Source: a virus. Taken from it: a DNA stretch of 36,924 nt. The notes beneath the pieces were generated by a model. The model saw only the letters and a program-made list of their open reading frames with translations, had not been told where the DNA came from and searched no databases. The position numbers and the translations under genes were made by a program. The stretch spans positions 1 through 36,924 of IMG/VR virus record IMGVR_UViG_3300042561_000300; one strand, 5' to 3'. This document shows, piece by piece, positions 15,901-36,924 of the stretch (positions are counted from its first letter, which is position 1; every line of letters starts with the position of its first letter).

Positions 15901-17174
15901 AAGTATCGCTTTAGAATTGCGTTCACAAAGTAACGAAAACAATCTAAGAAGTCAGCACGCTCGGCAATGTTTTTTCGATTGGTCTTTATGATGCTGCCAT
16001 TGGCATCGCACTGCACTTGCTTCGCATCGAAGACGAATCCCTTGCAGCGCTTTGAGTTCACGCGGATGTCGAGCTTGCGAAGTGCTGCGTTGCAATCGAT
16101 GCGGCTGTTGTAGTGCGTTGGGTTAGCCGGTATCAGGAACTGGCTGTCGCTCATGCCGAGCCGCCGCTTTATCATCGTGTATGCGCTGGAGTTATCTCGC
16201 TGTTGAACCGTGCCACCCTTACCCATCGCATCGCCTGTAATCCTGATGAGCCCCATCGGGATGCCGAGCGCAAGCACAGCATCGCAGAAAGCATCCACGC
16301 TGCCCTTCTCAATCTTTATCTCATCCACCACCACAGCGCCTCTGCCAACGTGCTGAAGCACCAAGGCACACAGCGGGTTAATGTTGAAGTCAACGCTGAT
16401 GTGCACTGGCATGTTGCGGTTGAGCTGCACGCTGTCATCGATGTGCTTATCATCGCTCCACTCATACAGGAACGGATTCGCCACATCGTCCATCACATCC
16501 CAATCGCCCTCCACGAATCGTGCGTACTGCACTGGCGGTAGCTCCTTCAAGCTCTCGAGGTACTCGGCGGGTATGTGCGGGTTATCGGTAATCTTGCTCG
16601 GGATGAATGTCCACCGCTCAGGCAAGGTGCCTTCCTTATAGCGCTCGTAAATGATTGACTTCACCCAGTTGTTCGCCGGGTTGCAAGTTGCCAGGCACAC
16701 GATCGGCGGCTGGCCTATTGCCTTGTTCCAACTTCCGATGCGCTCTTGGACCTTGTAGAATGTTTGCTCTTGCAACTCATTCACCTCATCCAAGCCAGCT
16801 CCATTGACCTCGAGCCCTTTGAATCGGTTGAGGTCCTTGTCATCGTCAAAGCTCTCAGCCATGAATAGCAACTCACTGCCGTTGATGAATGTCACTACTT
16901 GCGTGTCGCGGTTCCAGCTTTCCACGTACTGGTTAACGCCATCGTCAAGTATCGAGTTGAATGATGGAAACGTTGTGCGCTTTAGGTCGGGCAGGCTGCG
17001 GCGAATAATCACCCATCGGCTGCGCGGGTATTGCAGCGCAAGGTAGCTGAGAGTTAGCAACAGCCAATACGTTTTGCCGCCACGAATTGCGCCACCGAAT
17101 ACGATGACACGGTATTGCCCTGACTCAATTGCCTCGAATGCTGTTGTCTGCCTGCCTGTGAGTTCGAAGTTCAT
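15897..17174 (-). CDS. terL: Terminase large subunit
   Basis: The 425-residue product is the packaging motor. Walker A is GGAIRGGKT (residues 27-35), Walker B is GAGLDE (125-130, D129 and E130), and a coupling motif CLATCNP follows near residue 160. The C-terminal RNase H-like nuclease domain shows acidic positions in HISVDFNIN, ITGDAMGKGG and DFLDCFRYF. It cuts concatemeric DNA and drives it through the portal by ATP hydrolysis. The length is normal for a compact terminase. Its ATG overlaps the stop of a 41-residue membrane protein (TAATG). It is separated from the portal by the whole tail cluster, which is unusual. Confidence 0.95.
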   Translation of the reverse strand: MNFELTGRQTTAFEAIESGQYRVIVFGGAIRGGKTYWLLLTLSYLALQYPRSRWVIIRRSLPDLKRTTFPSFNSILDDGVNQYVESWNRDTQVVTFINGSELLFMAESFDDDKDLNRFKGLEVNGAGLDEVNELQEQTFYKVQERIGSWNKAIGQPPIVCLATCNPANNWVKSIIYERYKEGTLPERWTFIPSKITDNPHIPAEYLESLKELPPVQYARFVEGDWDVMDDVANPFLYEWSDDKHIDDSVQLNRNMPVHISVDFNINPLCALVLQHVGRGAVVVDEIKIEKGSVDAFCDAVLALGIPMGLIRITGDAMGKGGTVQQRDNSSAYTMIKRRLGMSDSQFLIPANPTHYNSRIDCNAALRKLDIRVNSKRCKGFVFDAKQVQCDANGSIIKTNRKNIAERADFLDCFRYFVNAILKRYL

Positions 17175-17299
17175 TATTCTTCCTCATCATTCGGGTCGGG
17201 CAGGCAGTCGATAATGTGGCGAAGCACAAGCACCAGGCAGTACGCAAGCCCAACCATGAACAGGGTGAACACCACTCCGATGCTGATTGCTTTAAGCAT
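17174..17299 (-). CDS. 41-residue membrane protein between terminase genes
   Basis: The frame begins MLKAISIGVVFTLFMVGLAY, forming one transmembrane helix (about residues 5-28), and ends with an acidic DPNDEEE tail. The ATG overlaps the small terminase stop by 8 nt and the TAA overlaps the large terminase ATG, so it is embedded in the packaging operon. A role as a holin-like or other small membrane protein is possible but nothing specific is visible. The overlaps and clean hydrophobic profile argue for a real gene. Confidence 0.65.
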   Translation of the reverse strand: MLKAISIGVVFTLFMVGLAYCLVLVLRHIIDCLPDPNDEEE

Positions 17300-17606
17300 T
17301 GCCATCCTCTTTCGTCTTGATGATCACCAACGGCTCGGTGGTCTTTAGCGTGGTCTCATTGGTCTGCTTCGGCTTGCCGTATGCGCGGTCGAGCAACAAC
17401 TCAGCTGCGCGGGTGTCTCCCTTCTTAGCTCTTGCATGCAATGCGTTGAGTATCTCTTCAGCGGCAGTCAGCCCATCCTTGCCTTCCTTGCCGAGCACGT
17501 TAGCCAAAAGCACATGAAGCTCGGGCAGCTTAGGCGGTCGGCCATTAGGGTTGCCGCTTTCGCCCTTCTTGAACTTGGTGTGCTCTGGTGGTATTCCCTT
17601 TGGCAT
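17292..17606 (-). CDS. Terminase small subunit / DUF5681-like DNA-binding protein
   Basis: The 104-residue product carries the FKKGESGNPNGRPPK motif (residues 12-26) of the DUF5681 family, which is common directly upstream of phage large terminases. A helical body follows (LTAAEEILNALHARAKKGDT, AAELLLDRAYGKPK). The basic GNPNGRP stretch probably contacts DNA. Small terminases recognise the packaging start and regulate the large subunit. The upstream sequence is A-rich without a Shine-Dalgarno sequence. Confidence 0.8.
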   Translation of the reverse strand: MPKGIPPEHTKFKKGESGNPNGRPPKLPELHVLLANVLGKEGKDGLTAAEEILNALHARAKKGDTRAAELLLDRAYGKPKQTNETTLKTTEPLVIIKTKEDGNA

Positions 17607-17626
17607 TTTCCCTGATTTTACCCTGT

Positions 17627-17767
17627 TTACCTTCTACGTGCTTTGCGGTACTTCTCAGCCTCAGCCAGTGCGATTGCCTGCGCTTGCTGAGGTGGATATC
17701 CTTCGCCAATTAGCTTGCGGATGTTCATGCTGATTACCTCTTGGCTGTCTCCTTGGAATAGTGGCAT
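17627..17767 (-). CDS. 46-residue conserved phage micro-protein
   Basis: The frame reads MPLFQGDSQEVISMNIRKLI, then GEGYPPQQAQAIALAEAEKY and RKARRR. It matches a short protein type seen in many unrelated phages, with a P-L-x-x-G-x-S-x-E-V-I-S-x-N-I start and a P-x-x-Q-A-x-A-I-A-L-x-x-A core. Its function is unknown; the basic end suggests nucleic-acid binding. The gene sits 3 nt after the previous stop and 20 nt before the small terminase. A weak TAAATTTG lies 6 nt upstream of the ATG, but no -33 element accompanies it. Confidence 0.85.
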   Translation of the reverse strand: MPLFQGDSQEVISMNIRKLIGEGYPPQQAQAIALAEAEKYRKARRR

Positions 17768-18605: not shown

Positions 18606-18842
18606 TTATTTGTTTGTGTTTTGCAAATTAATATTATTCTTGTGCAGAAGCCTCAGCCAGTTCAATGCCTTAATCGTGTATGTGCGATGCACTGATGTGC
18701 CATGCTCAGCTATTGTCAGATACCTCGCAAGCGATTTGTGCGCCTGTTGCGTTGAGGTGTAAGTTAGCGGCCCATCCACAAGCGTTGCCTCATCTGGAAG
18801 CATATCGGTCATGTAGTGAATTATCTTGTCATACTTAGTCAT
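18606..18842 (-). CDS. Hypothetical 78-residue protein
   Basis: The product is a helical, basic protein (MTKYDKIIHYMTDMLPDEAT; SLARYLTIAEHGTSVHRTYT). The pattern of short helices with an intervening turn could fit a small winged or other helix-turn-helix domain, but no firm match was seen. It overlaps the nuclease gene by 8 nt at its start and is the last gene before the packaging promoter. Function unknown. Confidence 0.6.
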   Translation of the reverse strand: MTKYDKIIHYMTDMLPDEATLVDGPLTYTSTQQAHKSLARYLTIAEHGTSVHRTYTIKALNWLRLLHKNNINLQNTNK

Positions 18843-19161
18843 GGTTTATGATGTTTAAGAATTCTTCTTCGTTTCGCACTATGTGGTACTCATGGCCGAG
18901 TGATCGGCAAATCTTTTCAAATCGCTTTTGCTCTTCCGACTGCTTTCCGGTGTCGGTCTTCCATTCAATCCAGCATGTCCGACCTTCCGGTTTCAGGTAG
19001 CACATATCGGCAACGCCAGACACAACTCCCATGGCTTTGTTCATTGCACCTTTGATGCCGTTCTCGCTGTTATTATTGATGGCAAATACTCTTCCACGCA
19101 AGTCGGGGCGGGCGTTCCATAGGTTTGTGAATGCTTTAGATTGGGCTTTTACTTCGCTCAT
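18835..19161 (-). CDS. VRR-NUC family nuclease
   Basis: The ATG at 19161 (MSEVKAQSKAFTNLW) gives 108 residues. An in-frame GTG at 19173 lies inside a repeat unit and is less likely. The PD-(D/E)xK core is clear: GVADMCYL with the catalytic Asp, CWIEWKTDTGKQ with E-x-K, and QSEEQKRFE after it. Stand-alone VRR-NUC proteins in phages are thought to resolve branched DNA or trim replication intermediates. It lies beside the repeat array and the primase-helicase, consistent with replication or recombination. Confidence 0.88.
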   Translation of the reverse strand: MSEVKAQSKAFTNLWNARPDLRGRVFAINNNSENGIKGAMNKAMGVVSGVADMCYLKPEGRTCWIEWKTDTGKQSEEQKRFEKICRSLGHEYHIVRNEEEFLNIINHD

Positions 19162-19164
19162 AAT

Positions 19165-19454
19165 TGTTGCCACTTAGTAAGGTGGCAACAAGGTTGTACA
19201 GCCCAAAAATCTTCTGTATCGCAATCGCTGCAATGATTACAGCGATTTGTTGCCACTTGAGCCAAAAAAAGCCCTGTTAGTATAATATGTGTGTGTGTGT
19301 GCATGTGTGTGTGTGTGTGTGTATAAATATTGTTAAGGTATGAAAAGTAAGTGGCAACAGTGGCAACAAATGGCTATAAAGCTTGGTATCATTGGGCTTG
19401 AAGTGTTGCCACTTGCTTTTTTGAAGTGGCAACAAAGTGGCAACACTGGCAACA
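19165..19454. repeat. Iteron-like GTGGCAACA array, candidate replication origin
   Basis: The 290-bp region holds eight exact copies of the 9-mer GTGGCAACA: plus at 19182, 19351, 19360, 19426 and 19437; minus at 19165, 19248 and 19404 (left ends). A ninth copy at 19446 differs at its first base. Copies at 19351/19360 and 19437/19446 are directly tandem. The array also includes an inverted repeat AATCGCTG/CAGCGATT (19223-19247), an A7 tract, a TG microsatellite and AT-rich patches. It fills the gap between the primase-helicase and the VRR-NUC gene. Iterons plus AT-rich DNA next to replication genes suggest an origin; a repressor-binding cluster is the alternative. Confidence 0.75.
19288..19322. 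repeat. TG dinucleotide microsatellite
   Basis: A run of about 17 TG units, interrupted once by CA at 19302-19303, lies in the centre of the iteron-like array. Alternating purine-pyrimidine DNA of this kind can adopt non-B structure and is prone to length change. It is flanked by AT-rich segments on both sides. Confidence 0.9.
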
Positions 19455-19456
19455 TA

Positions 19457-21580
19457 TCACATCGGATTTTTATTGATAAAGTACATTCTAACAATCGAAT
19501 TTCCACGGCGTTTGCGGTCTTGCGTATAGCCTAATGAAGTCAATATCGAACCGATACGCTGCGTGTTTAGGTAATTGAACTTTGTCTCAATCATAAGGTA
19601 CTGCTGGATATCGGTTAGCGACATCCACTCGCCATAGCTTTCGGAATTTGCCGGACTCAGCTTCTTGTGGATTAGGTCCTCTTCAGGTGTTGAGTGCTTG
19701 AACGCATCAGTTGATTGGTTGAGCTCTTCGATATCTTGGCGCAATACTGTGTAATCCCAGCCGTTGCGATACATGGCATAAATCTCACGCCATAGGGCAA
19801 CCTTATCGCACTTGTTGTATTCATTTTGGTCAATCCCAAGTATGTGAATAGGTATCTGCCTACGGTTGCCAGTTGGATCGTTGAGTATCTGCGTTTCGTT
19901 CGATGTACCGCAGAACACTGCAAGCCTACGAAGGTCGAGCGACACGCGGCCATAGGGTTCGCGCACGTTGATGAACTCCTTCGATGTTAGCTCCTTGAGT
20001 CGCTTCTCTTCCTTTTTGGACTTACCGCCGTATTCATCATCGAGGATAATCAGTTTCAGGCACATAAGAATCTCGTCATCCTTTCCGGCATCCATCTTCG
20101 ACTCAGCGAATAGGTACCTGAGCTGCTTGGGTAGCAAGTAGCGGAACCAGTGTGTCTTTCCTGTGCCTTGCTTCTGACCTGAGAATATCAGCACCAATGG
20201 AGAGTGGTTGCCATAGGCAGATGCTACCACAGAAACCAGCCATTTGCAGATCCACTTATCAGCATTTGGTGTGTCAGTGATTACGCTGTTAAGCAAATGT
20301 GTAAGGTTCGGGCATTCGTCCTCGGTGTGCAGTTCATCTTCAAAGAACTCATGCAGCGGGTTGTATGAGTCGATGCGATTGGAAAAGATAATGGAAGTAA
20401 CCAGGTCTTTTGTGGACTCTTTGAATACGGCTTTGCAATCGAGAAAAATCGAGTTAATGTCACTGTCATCGATGGCCCTTCCGTTGAGTTCAATCTTGCG
20501 CGTAACTACGTTTTTTCTTAGGTCGAAAGTTCGGATAAATGCCGCAATGTCAGCGCTTACGTTCTCCGATTTGAATTTAATATCCTTTGCTACTATCTCA
20601 TTGACAACTTTCGTGCTTTGTTCCGGGCTGATGCCTGCCACTTCGAGGCTGCGCACGATGGCTTCAGGCGAAAGTCCAGCGGCACGTTGCGAGCTCGCAG
20701 CGCGGAGTATCTCCTTGGTCTGCTCGGAGTATGCCTGTATTCCGTTTTGCTTGGCGTGGTAGTAAATGGTTGCTATTGTGGACCGCTTGCCCTTGCTCTC
20801 GCTGTGGTTCTTTAGGCATGCAGTGTACTGGGCATTGCAGTCATCGGAGTTGTATTTGGAAGAGTGCGATGACAGCGTGTGGAAGTAGTCGCGACCACCT
20901 TCGCCAAATTCGGACACCAGTGCGTATGCGATTTGAATCCACTCGGAGTAATCTTCGCAGAGGTTAAGCCCTTTGCGGTCCATCGCGGCGATCATGGCAT
21001 CGAAGTCGGTTTTAACTACCGCTACCTTAGCGAGCTTGCGCTCTTTGGGCTTGGCGAGGTACTTCTTGAACATGACGGCCTTGGTATTGATGTGAATCCA
21101 AGGGTCATAAGAGATGAAGCGAGCACGCGATACGTTCTTTCCGGATTGGTCAACGATGAGCTGGTAGGTGTGGTATAAGTAAGATGCGATGCCATTAAAC
21201 GCATCGAGATGGCGTGTGCCATCGATTTTCACTATCAGGCATAGTCCATGTCCACTGATGGAAGTAAACGCAGCGTAAACGTAAGAATCGCCTTGTACGA
21301 GCTTCTTGGTATCTTCAGGATTGTCGATGTTGTCGATGTCGATGGCAATGAATCCAGAGTGCGCTCGGATGGCATCGTCCTTTCGAGCCGAGAATGAGCC
21401 GCTGATGGTGACAAGCGGTGCGGTTTTCTTGAGCTTGTCACGTTCGGCCTTGTCAGGTGTTGACCTAACTTGCAGAACTATGTCCTGCCATTTGCCTGTT
21501 CTGACTCCTTCCAAAAAGGAACTGAGTTCGATGTCAATGTCTTGATTGTCATAGATGTTTTTGTATTGTGAGATGAGCAT
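19457..21580 (-). CDS. VirE/BT4734-type primase-helicase
   Basis: The 707-residue product combines three parts. Residues about 1-170 match the VirE N-terminal/BT4734-like primase region (FLEGVRTGKWQDIVLQVRST; GFIAIDIDNIDNPEDTKKL). A PriCT-like helical segment follows (EDYSEWIQIAYALVSEFGEG, near 220-260). The C-terminal helicase has Walker A GQKQGTGKTHW (near 470) and Walker B LIILDDEYGG, followed by an arginine-rich sensor region (VSLDLRRLAVFCGTSNETQI). It should prime and unwind phage DNA. Its start overlaps the DEAD/DEAH helicase gene by 103 nt. The stop lies 3 nt from the repeat array, which suggests the array as its target. Confidence 0.88.
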   Translation of the reverse strand: MLISQYKNIYDNQDIDIELSSFLEGVRTGKWQDIVLQVRSTPDKAERDKLKKTAPLVTISGSFSARKDDAIRAHSGFIAIDIDNIDNPEDTKKLVQGDSYVYAAFTSISGHGLCLIVKIDGTRHLDAFNGIASYLYHTYQLIVDQSGKNVSRARFISYDPWIHINTKAVMFKKYLAKPKERKLAKVAVVKTDFDAMIAAMDRKGLNLCEDYSEWIQIAYALVSEFGEGGRDYFHTLSSHSSKYNSDDCNAQYTACLKNHSESKGKRSTIATIYYHAKQNGIQAYSEQTKEILRAASSQRAAGLSPEAIVRSLEVAGISPEQSTKVVNEIVAKDIKFKSENVSADIAAFIRTFDLRKNVVTRKIELNGRAIDDSDINSIFLDCKAVFKESTKDLVTSIIFSNRIDSYNPLHEFFEDELHTEDECPNLTHLLNSVITDTPNADKWICKWLVSVVASAYGNHSPLVLIFSGQKQGTGKTHWFRYLLPKQLRYLFAESKMDAGKDDEILMCLKLIILDDEYGGKSKKEEKRLKELTSKEFINVREPYGRVSLDLRRLAVFCGTSNETQILNDPTGNRRQIPIHILGIDQNEYNKCDKVALWREIYAMYRNGWDYTVLRQDIEELNQSTDAFKHSTPEEDLIHKKLSPANSESYGEWMSLTDIQQYLMIETKFNYLNTQRIGSILTSLGYTQDRKRRGNSIVRMYFINKNPM

Positions 21581-28352: not shown

Positions 28353-28519
28353 TTTATCAGTTCGTTTAATCGTTTGAGGTAAGTGCTCTTATCGCGCAGC
28401 TCGTTGAGCAATATATCGCCCGCCACCTTAATCGGCATTGACTTCTCGGCAATGTAAACTGCCAGCACCTTCACAAGTCGCTCATCGCATTCGCAATCGG
28501 TCGCTGGTAGGTTGTTCAT
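28334..28519 (-). CDS. Hypothetical 61-residue protein
   Basis: The product (MNNLPATDCECDERLVKVLA) is a small helical protein with a C-x-C near the start and a basic end (KRLNELIKCSKAT). Its ATG overlaps the stop of the HisKA-like gene (ATGA), so it is translationally coupled to it. No family was recognised. Confidence 0.65.
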   Translation of the reverse strand: MNNLPATDCECDERLVKVLAVYIAEKSMPIKVAGDILLNELRDKSTYLKRLNELIKCSKAT

Positions 28520-29082
28520 AATTGCCGTGTTGCTTTCTTAACTAACAGCCGAATCACATTGTCGAGCTTTTCAACACTATCTTCGAGCATTTTCATCACA
28601 CCATCGCGCTCCTGATCGGTTGCCCATGTATGCTCATTTATCATTTTCACCAAGCCACCAATCGATGTCAACGGCTGCCGAAGCTCATGCGATAGGGTAA
28701 ATCGGAACTCTTCAAGAAGCATCTTTTGCCGTTCATATTCGTGGTTGCTTATGGAAGTAACATCGACCAGTTGAATGCCGATGAAGTGCAGCATATCGAC
28801 AATCGCGTAAACATTCCACATGTTGAACCGCTCGGATGCAATCTTCTGCTTTGTCTTTGCGTATGCCCGAATCGGGTCAGGCGATTTGCTTTGCGCCTTG
28901 CGAATGGCTGCAAGCAATTCATCGCGGTCGCTATCTTGCGCTGCGATGTCGAGGATATTGCCGGGCTTTATGTGGCTGGAGTACTCGCGGAATAGGTCAT
29001 TCGTGGTGACGATGTTGCCATCCCTGTCGGTGATCACATAGAAGAGGTCAATTGATGACTCAAGGATGTGCAGCGATGCCAT
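28516..29082 (-). CDS. PAS + HisKA protein lacking the kinase ATPase domain
   Basis: From the ATG at 29082 the product has 188 residues. Residues about 5-115 form a PAS domain (SSIDLFYVITDRDGNIVTTN; IQLVDVTSISNHEYERQ). Residues about 120-185 form the dimerisation/phosphoacceptor helices of histidine kinases: the H-box FTLSHELRQPLTSIGG with phosphoacceptor H132 and P137, then a second helix (DGVMKMLEDSVEKLDNVIRL). The protein ends exactly where the HATPase_c domain should begin, so it cannot phosphorylate itself. It could dimerise with host kinases, act as a phosphotransfer or phosphatase partner, or block signalling. Its own promoter lies 4 nt before the ATG. It is placed next to the lysis genes. 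Confidence 0.85.
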   Translation of the reverse strand: MASLHILESSIDLFYVITDRDGNIVTTNDLFREYSSHIKPGNILDIAAQDSDRDELLAAIRKAQSKSPDPIRAYAKTKQKIASERFNMWNVYAIVDMLHFIGIQLVDVTSISNHEYERQKMLLEEFRFTLSHELRQPLTSIGGLVKMINEHTWATDQERDGVMKMLEDSVEKLDNVIRLLVKKATRQL

Positions 29083-29086
29083 GCTG

Positions 29087-29094
29087 CAAAGATA
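29087..29094 (-). promoter_or_regulatory. Promoter TATCTTTG of the HisKA-like gene
   Basis: Minus-strand TATCTTTG is followed by CAGC and then the ATG at 29082. A TTG lies 22 nt upstream. The 4-nt gap predicts a leaderless transcript. The element lies just after the stop of the upstream 130-residue gene (29097), so it makes a separate unit of the HisKA-like, 61-residue and spanin-like genes. Confidence 0.8.
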
Positions 29095-29096
29095 CG

Positions 29097-29489
29097 TTAA
29101 ACCGAACGTAAATCCGCAATTAATGAACGCCATGCTGGCACACATCCGAGCGCATACTTGATGGTAAGCAGCATCGTGAAGGTCAGCACAATTCCGTTAG
29201 CGAGTATATCGTAATTCATAGGCGTTGGCATTTCCGGCTCGTTTCTTACAGCGTGAGTTTTCGGGATGTAATACGTGGCGGCTGGGTATAAAGATACATC
29301 ACACGGCTGAATCGTGTCGAATGCTGTTAGCACTTTCGGCTTTGCCGGCTGTGCCATGACCGCCTGAAAGCTCTCACGATTCGCTTGGGCGAATGAGGTG
29401 TCTGCATTAGCAGCCTCCCAGCTCATCGTGTCAATGTTGAGCTTGCTGTAACGCACTACCTTTATTGTATCTCTTCTAATCTGTTGCAT
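29097..29489 (-). CDS. 130-residue membrane protein of the lysis region
   Basis: The product has a soluble N-terminal part of about 90 residues with a P-rich segment (QPAKPKVLTAFDTIQP) and one transmembrane helix near residues 95-115 (GIVLTFTMLLTIKYALGCV). It overlaps the holin-like gene by 14 nt. Position after the endolysin and holin-like gene suggests a lysis accessory role. No family was recognised. Confidence 0.6.
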   Translation of the reverse strand: MQQIRRDTIKVVRYSKLNIDTMSWEAANADTSFAQANRESFQAVMAQPAKPKVLTAFDTIQPCDVSLYPAATYYIPKTHAVRNEPEMPTPMNYDILANGIVLTFTMLLTIKYALGCVPAWRSLIADLRSV

Positions 29490-35901: not shown

Positions 35902-36924
35902 TTACGGGTTTACGATCTCAACACAGTTCACATAGTTAACACCAGCATACTTGTCGGCTGATTCGTAAATGTCAGTTGGAAGCGTTACAATCTTTCCAGT
36001 TGTAGTCAACACAATCGACAAATTACCGCAATCATCCTTCATGGTAAGGTCAACAGGAACTCCAGCCGGTGTGAACACCAAGGTCTTAGAGTAGTTTGAA
36101 CCAGCCACAGGCGTGATGCCCTGATTCCAATCAGCAAGATTAAATGATAACCACTGAATTGCTCCGGCAGTAGTTACCAAGTTTTTAAGCTGCGAACCTT
36201 GAGCCGCTGCAACGCGAGAATCGTAAGAGAATCCGAAACCGTTTTGCTGGCTGATAGCCAACAAGTCGATGCCGAACTGAGTGCAGCAACCAGCCTGCAC
36301 CGCGTTAGCATAACGCTGCATCTCAGCACCACCAAATACCACAGGCGCACCTGGATAGTTAGCCATGCGAGTTGCTTGAAGGATGTCAGCAAGGGCGAAC
36401 TCGTTCAATGCTTGCCCGCCAGTCTGGCGAGTAGCAACGCGCAAGCAGTCACCACTTACAGTGTAGTACCCTGACACCTCAGTGCCCCAACTTCCGATGT
36501 CAGCAACAGCCTGAACAGCGGCAGCAGAAGCAACCTTGCGATCAAGTACATCCATCAAACGCATTACCGACTCAAGCACATAGCGAGAGTTCTCTTGGCA
36601 ATGGCGAGCGATGTCAGCAGCATTGATCAGCTGAGATGCTTGGTACGTGTCAGTCACATCCAACGTATACGTGGTTGTGCTGTCTCCGTAAGTGTTCGTT
36701 GAGGTACAAGCTAAGATGTCACCATCTGTCTCAACTTCGGTCTCAGGCAAACGCTGAATCCAACGTGCTTGTACTGTTTTTAATTTACCGCCACCGGGTG
36801 CAACCTCAGTGCGGATTAGTTTTGCGTTTTCAGGCGAAAGCAAGAACTCTAAGAAAGGCAATTGCTCACGCTGTCCAACTTCGATGAAGAGTTCGCTAAG
36901 TGACATTTGCACATTAGGACACTC
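35902..36924 (-). CDS. Major capsid protein (continues at left end of window)
   Basis: The product is read here from the window edge to the stop at 35902; its first codons are at 128-151. The full protein is about 348 residues (334 from the internal ATG at 36906). The sequence has a helical start (SLSELFIEVGQREQLPFLEF), an E-loop-like beta region and a long helix (NAADIARHCQENSRYVLESV, then MRLMDVLDRKVASAAAVQAV), then a beta-rich end (LVFTPAGVPVDLTMKDDCGN). It follows the scaffold block and has its own promoter and terminator, as expected for the most abundant virion protein. A HK97-like fold is likely by gene order but is not proved by sequence. Confidence 0.75.
   Translation of the reverse strand, partial: ECPNVQMSLSELFIEVGQREQLPFLEFLLSPENAKLIRTEVAPGGGKLKTVQARWIQRLPETEVETDGDILACTSTNTYGDSTTTYTLDVTDTYQASQLINAADIARHCQENSRYVLESVMRLMDVLDRKVASAAAVQAVADIGSWGTEVSGYYTVSGDCLRVATRQTGGQALNEFALADILQATRMANYPGAPVVFGGAEMQRYANAVQAGCCTQFGIDLLAISQQNGFGFSYDSRVAAAQGSQLKNLVTTAGAIQWLSFNLADWNQGITPVAGSNYSKTLVFTPAGVPVDLTMKDDCGNLSIVLTTTGKIVTLPTDIYESADKYAGVNYVNCVEIVNP
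36798..36924. repeat. Terminal 127-bp direct repeat, right copy
   Basis: This is the right-hand copy of the repeat at 1-127. It cuts the capsid gene, whose N-terminal codons continue at positions 128-151 at the left end of the window. Confidence 0.95.

Follow-up and report, generated by a model that had tools for sequence, protein, structure and literature searches.

Results

An iteron array lies between a primase-helicase gene and a nuclease gene

The window, by which we mean the whole stretch of viral DNA analysed here (36,924 nucleotides; IMG/VR record IMGVR_UViG_3300042561_000300), carries a 290-bp array of short repeats between two genes of the minus strand, and the features at this locus are as follows.

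18835-19161, minus strand: VRR-NUC-like nuclease (Pfam, PHROG), on the opposite side of the array from the primase-helicase; it does not track the repeat motif and serves as a negative control
19165-19256: VRR-side iteron set near the VRR-NUC start, three exact copies of GTGGCAACA at 19165-19173 (minus), 19182-19190 (plus) and 19248-19256 (minus); homologous sets in relatives
19285-19325: 41-nt strictly alternating purine-pyrimidine tract (TG/CA repeat with a central TGCA) between the iteron sets
19351-19454: primase-side iteron set near the primase stop codon, six copies at 19351-19359 (plus), 19360-19368 (plus), 19404-19412 (minus), 19426-19434 (plus), 19437-19445 (plus) and 19446-19454 (plus, the near copy CTGGCAACA); homologous sets in relatives
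19457-21580, minus strand: primase-helicase, 707 aa, the proposed initiator (Pfam; PDB match 7pds, VapE; AlphaFold2 model)
19457-19663, minus strand: C-terminal winged-helix domain of the primase-helicase, about residues 640-707, the proposed origin-binding domain (AlphaFold2; Foldseek match to RFX; covariation)
19469-19525, minus strand: wing hairpin, residues 686-704, of which 691, 696 and 698 covary with iteron bases
19535-19564, minus strand: recognition helix, residues 673-682 (AlphaFold2; covariation)

As described in the original prediction, the region from 19165 to 19454 holds eight exact copies of GTGGCAACA in both orientations (five on the plus and three on the minus strand) and one CTGGCAACA, and most copies can be extended to the 11-bp AAGTGGCAACA. 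The statement that chance cannot account for eight copies was borne out by dinucleotide-style shuffles of the 290-bp region, in which no 9-mer reached more than four copies in 2000 trials. Elsewhere in the 36.9-kb genome GTGGCAACA occurs exactly once, at 1283, and a genome-wide scan of 400-bp windows ranked 19165-19454 as the top short-repeat array, with nine copies of TGGCAACA compared with at most three copies of a comparable 8-mer per 400-bp window in the rest of the genome. The array ends 2 nt from the primase stop codon (19457) and not 3 nt, as had been given. The inverted repeat AATCGCTG/CAGCGATT that had been listed among the elements of the site is indeed present, but it is absent from the close relatives L001 and L016 and is therefore probably no working part.

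The primase-helicase consists of a BT4734-like N-terminal domain of the archaeo-eukaryotic primase type (Pfam, 2e-15), a PriCT-2 domain (PriCT_2, 7e-14), a VapE-like helicase (2.3e-28) and a DUF3874 C-terminus, and it matches the VapE-like protein 7pds in the PDB (E 4e-11). No Pfam match to a Rep_3 or RepA_N initiator domain was found among the ten genes around the array.

The genome encodes a terminase large subunit, a tape-measure-like protein, a lysozyme and other virion proteins, and the window is thus a full tailed phage and not a PICI satellite, which would not carry full virion and packaging genes. An exact 127-bp direct repeat at both ends (1-127 and 36798-36924, enclosing a unique genome of ~36.8 kb) indicates that the genome is probably complete, either circular or terminally redundant. 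A DNA similarity search against known phages returned no match. Cultured relatives share 32-36% primase identity and a Chitinophaga prophage relative shares 42%, and it is on these relatives that the probable assignment to a Bacteroidota host rests; the array is not present at the prophage locus (L152), the sole relative that came from genome contigs. The window also encodes, at 28516-29145 on the minus strand, a phage protein in which Pfam detects a HisKA phospho-acceptor domain (4e-7).

The array is conserved in relatives while its sequence varies

Using the primase-helicase as query, we retrieved 80 loci from IMG/VR, with more added later, and surveyed the array in the window and in the 76 relatives with a readable, classable region. 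All 77 sequences have at least five copies of a repeat core past the primase stop codon, in both orientations and at the same spot as in the window, and all 77 retain an alternating purine-pyrimidine CA/TG tract of 23-53 nt, which bears out the attention that had been drawn to the TG microsatellite. The repeat itself differs among phages, with all copies inside one array switching in concert, and we distinguished 16 motif classes, assigned by eye from computed k-mers; the variants include AAGTGGCAACA, AAGTTGTCCA, AAGCTGCAACA, AAGCTGTCCA, AAGTGGTCCA, AAGTAGTCCA, AAGTTGATACA, GATGATGCA, GGTGGTGCA, GCCTGATGCA and GTGCCTGTCC, among others. On a tree of primase residues 1-600 from 76 phages the motif class changes at least 33 times.

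Among cultured distant relatives, no comparable array was found past the primase of Nonlabens P12024S or Cellulophaga phi46:1. Flavobacterium phage mumin6-2 (L155 4738-5570; MN812221 about 16886-17718) has an AGGTAAC array with nine GGTAAC copies before VRR-NUC, and an annotated nuclease gene (PF10544) sits between its primase and the array, an arrangement reminiscent of the origin-directed nuclease Odn. The whole-genome skew minimum of mumin6-2 falls at 8.6 kb and not at the array (17.4 kb), in a genome with genes in both directions.

A scan of 2.9 million viral contigs for inverted iteron pairs found eight contigs, seven of which have this primase. The exception, L158, has three copies near an integrase-like gene, comprising an inverted GTTGCCAC/GTGGCAAC pair at 839-874 and another TGGCAACA, and no relative of this primase was found on the contig. 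TCC-motif inverted pairs in the viral contigs were only chance-like ones, so that satellites or other elements sharing these iterons found no backing in the scan beyond L158. In addition, one contig (IMGVR_UViG_3300008259_000070, 40,001 bases) holds two primase loci with unlike arrays, L007 and L027, the latter with a primase that lacks residues 207-255; this contig may represent two joined phages or an assembly artefact.

GC skew reaches its minimum beside the array

The GC-skew check proposed with the original prediction gave a favourable outcome. In each of 11 complete or near-complete genomes, of which the window is one, the detrended cumulative GC skew bottoms out downstream of the array, at a distance of 17 to 1593 bp, and the minimum at third codon positions lies between -969 and +1641 bp from the array; the minimum is thus within 1.7 kb in 11 of 11 genomes and up to 1.6 kb off in several, and these genomes are related and therefore do not count as independent tests. 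Gene direction does not explain the minimum, since more than 90% of the coding sequence is on one strand. In the window the third-codon skew shifts from -0.147 to -0.079 with no change of sign.

We considered whether the array could instead be an operator or promoter, through which a regulator or the primase-helicase controls the downstream VRR-NUC and late genes while the origin lies elsewhere. Its place between two same-strand genes would suit such a role, as would four promoter-like matches where 1.9 are expected. However, this promoter signal is weak, the skew minimum is found at the site in 11 of 11 genomes, and the array is kept in L004, L058 and L143, where sequence other than VRR-NUC lies downstream. 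Together with the finding, described below, that the motif classes track the primase winged helix and no other neighbour, these observations make an operator very improbable.

The repeat motif follows the C-terminus of the primase-helicase

Covariation with the repeat was screened over 2407 columns from 15 neighbouring gene families encoded within about 6 kb, by comparing unlike-motif with like-motif pairs among close pairs of phages (85% identity or more across primase residues 1-620). All of the ten top-ranking columns belong to the C-terminal 64 residues of the primase (residues 644-703), a region in which physical linkage of wing and array means that hitch-hiking could inflate some columns (for example 642-647 and 701-703). 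The top column, residue 696, differs in 261 of 415 unlike-motif pairs and in 0 of 114 same-motif pairs. In leave-one-out nearest-neighbour prediction the winged helix gave the right motif in 88% of cases, compared with 60% for the rest of the primase and 41% for VRR-NUC, and with close relatives removed these values were 70%, 32% and 22%, respectively. When independent pairs were drawn from the primase-core tree, Lys696 accompanied the TCC half-site in every one of the ~12 that differed (p about 0.0005). By these comparisons the predicted C-terminal winged helix of the adjacent primase-helicase is the only neighbouring segment that tracks the motif.

The original prediction had named the primase N-terminus, the 78-residue protein or the 62-residue protein as possible binders, and none of these agrees with the data. 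It is the C-terminal winged helix, and not the N-terminus, that tracks the motif; the 62-aa ribbon-helix-helix-like protein is identical, and the 78-aa protein nearly identical, in L002 and L003 despite their unlike arrays. No column of VRR-NUC, the terminase-small candidate, the second helicase, HNH or other neighbours rivals the primase C-terminus. The same comparison bears on the idea that the array serves packaging (pac) or partition and is recognised by a DNA-binding protein such as the small subunit of the terminase. Within 2-3 kb there are indeed the large terminase gene and a candidate for the small one, and the 62-aa protein nearby is basic, but no covariation with the motif was seen for this candidate, the 62-aa protein or the 78-aa protein, and we give this idea almost no credence compared with recognition by the primase-helicase.

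A predicted winged helix with a residue/base correspondence

AlphaFold2 models the last 60-70 residues of the primase-helicase as a winged helix with pLDDT of about 83-91, within a full-length model of lower overall confidence (pTM 0.46). It comprises a helix at 673-682 and wing strands at 686-692 and 695-704; the second strand holds 696 and 698 in alternating positions, and 691 lies on the first. The best Foldseek matches of this domain are RFX DNA-binding domains (1DP7, 8ZJR; probability 0.96-0.99, E only 0.09-0.14) at a sequence identity of about 12-14%; a PDB sequence search with the primase C-terminus gave nothing meaningful, and no sequence match to a solved P4 domain was found. GGCAAC in the window iteron and GGTAAC in mumin6-2 both look like the X-box half-site of RFX factors. 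RFX1 uses its wing to read the major groove of DNA and its helix to read the minor groove (PMC4333399), and the putative specificity residues of the phage domain sit where the wing and helix of RFX1 contact DNA. RFX1 is, however, a eukaryotic dimeric transcription factor, and we do not claim the phage domain as a member of the RFX family.

Matched variants of winged helix and array occur in dozens of relatives, and pairs of amino acids and DNA letters can therefore be read from the alignments. In 76 sequences, residues 691 and 696 correspond to the 3' half-site, 698 to the middle bases and 674/678 to the 5' end.

R691 with I696 or V696: CAACA
R691 with L696: ATACA
G691 with L696: ATGCA
G691 with K696: GTGCA
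K696 with another residue at 691: TCC
Residue 698: R with TGG, A with TAG, M with xTG, T with TTG or CTG (consistent after GGTGGTGCA had been split anew as GTG|GTGCA in knowledge of the residues)
Q674/S678: 5' AAG
N674/Q678: 5' GTGC or GCC

Exceptions are L070 and L161, in which L698 is paired with a less strict repeat of the TGG type, and the L080 clade, an outlier that combines T696 with CAACC. Close pairs illustrate how few residues accompany a switch. Between L018 and L024 there are 9 differences in 707 residues, of which R691T, S694N and I696K are the three in the wing, and the array changes from CAACA to TCCA (TCC type); 17 differences, four of them wing changes, separate L023 from L021, with a change from ATACA to TCC; and 11, with T686Q, Q687K and R698T among them, separate the window from L016, with a change from TGG to TTG. 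Outside the first set, L143 (I696, R698, array AAGTGGCAACA) and L098 (L696, M698, array GATGATGCA) fit the code, and a far clade combines V696 and T698 with CAAC cores, with residues and arrays viewed together and hence not blinded in these three cases; L161 also agrees with the covariation, despite its exception at 698. The distant relatives L109 and L145 have wholly different repeats (AACCCCTACACA and ACAAGGGTACA) and other wing residues, so the code reaches past the rule given here.

Wing codons and array change together

In DNA alignments of related phages, identity stays at ~90-97% until the wing codons or the final few hundred bases of the primase gene are reached, falls to 65-81% over the array and is back at 91-95% at the start of VRR-NUC. 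The sharp drop over wing codons and array points to a cassette of about 0.4-0.7 kb that is exchanged or co-mutated, and as the wing codons adjoin the array, recombination or co-mutation replaces both together.

Such linkage might by itself produce covariation, if wing codons and array merely co-travel on recombining DNA with no specific recognition between them. A sharp divergence block of 0.4-0.7 kb spans these two elements, and C-terminal columns beyond the wing differ too. Yet VRR-NUC, although just as near to the array on its other flank, is a poor predictor of the motif, identical residue/base pairings turn up repeatedly in independent lineages (Lys696 with TCC in all ~12 pairs) and in far clades, and the key residues alternate on one wing strand. 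Linkage alone is therefore insufficient and very unlikely to be the whole explanation, and we favour specific recognition of the iterons by the wing.

Discussion

Our analyses indicate that the array is very probably the replication origin of this phage, bound by the C-terminal winged helix of its own primase-helicase in the manner of P4, SaPI and PICI replicons. The original prediction of an origin beside the primase-helicase is thereby strengthened, as the covariation of motif and putative initiator, the GC-skew minimum and the match to known origin layouts all speak for it. Several copies of the primase-helicase would bind the 11-bp AAGTGGCAACA through their C-terminal winged helices, the wing hairpin reading the iteron core and 3' half and the helix the 5' end. 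The two iteron sets flank the conserved alternating, AT-flanked tract at 19285-19325, which is the likely unwinding element; the bound proteins would form helicase rings and open this tract, and their own primase domain would prime synthesis. Since one protein would bind, open and prime, no separate initiator would be needed. Joint replacement of wing codons and array would create new origin specificities, and phages of different motif classes would be mutually incompatible.

This arrangement resembles that of several characterized replicons. The C-terminal domain of the SaPI Rep helicase recognises a short-iteron origin directly downstream of its own gene (PMC7581432, citing Ubeda 2007), and PICI origins always have two iteron sets around an AT-rich stretch (PMC6092414). 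Similarly, the array in the window lies directly downstream of the putative initiator gene with two sets flanking an AT-rich stretch, and the helicase is related in sequence to 7pds, a solved VapE-like structure. Self-initiating replicons of this type have an AAA+/SF3-like helicase of the VapE/D5 type, alone or fused to a primase, a C-terminal winged-helix domain and a downstream iteron origin of two sets with an AT-rich stretch; we found the first in the primase-helicase, the second in its AlphaFold2 model and the third at the array. Such replicons are further marked by specific iteron binding of the C-terminal domain, which the strong covariation would predict for the phage, and by autonomous replication from gene plus origin, for which the skew minimum at the site gives indirect support. 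In contrast to SaPIs and PICIs, the replicon described here belongs to a full tailed phage and has a BT4734-like primase and an alternating purine-pyrimidine tract. The alpha protein of P4 likewise unites primase, helicase and a winged-helix origin-binding domain, which binds repeats at ori and crr (PMC4234260) and whose fold has been grouped with RFX1 (PMC10516667), a relation that Foldseek also suggests for the phage domain. The P4 alpha primase is of the TOPRIM type (PMC4234260), whereas that of the window is BT4734-like.

A parallel for the covariation comes from PLE satellites of Vibrio cholerae, in which the RepA DNA-binding domain covaries with the origin iterons, the two are exchanged as one module and only cognate pairs replicate, and in which this has been linked to an origin-directed phage nuclease (PMC8263062). 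PLEs have a RepA_N domain, three ~30-bp semi-palindromic iterons and two module types, while the group studied here has a predicted winged helix, 10-11-bp sites, about 16 motif classes and a residue-level correspondence. Phage lambda, moreover, can be blocked by extra origin copies (PMC4488673). By analogy, PLE swapping and the blocking of lambda suggest plausible reasons for fast origin turnover.

More tentatively, and short of regarding it as probable, we propose that this phage group may often change the 'password' of its origin by swapping a cassette of about half a kilobase that holds wing codons and array, probably because it competes with co-infecting relatives or satellites or faces decoy origins or nucleases directed at origins, and that the wing may follow a largely modular amino-acid/base code that is readable from natural sequences alone. 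Joint replacement of wing codons and array would create new origin specificities, and phages of different motif classes would be mutually incompatible.

In a search of the literature on Bacteroidota phages, which was not exhaustive, we found no paper on this array or code. The about 16 natural, matched initiator/origin specificities, including phage pairs that differ at few wing residues, form a series that makes a specificity code of P4/SaPI/RFX-like winged helices, and the reason for origin diversification, directly testable, and mumin6-2 offers a cultured relative as a laboratory system. Our findings would locate the replication origin in a large group of uncultured phages and extend the PICI-type origin layout to ordinary tailed phages, in which diversification of origin specificity may provide a route to incompatibility and to escape from parasites.
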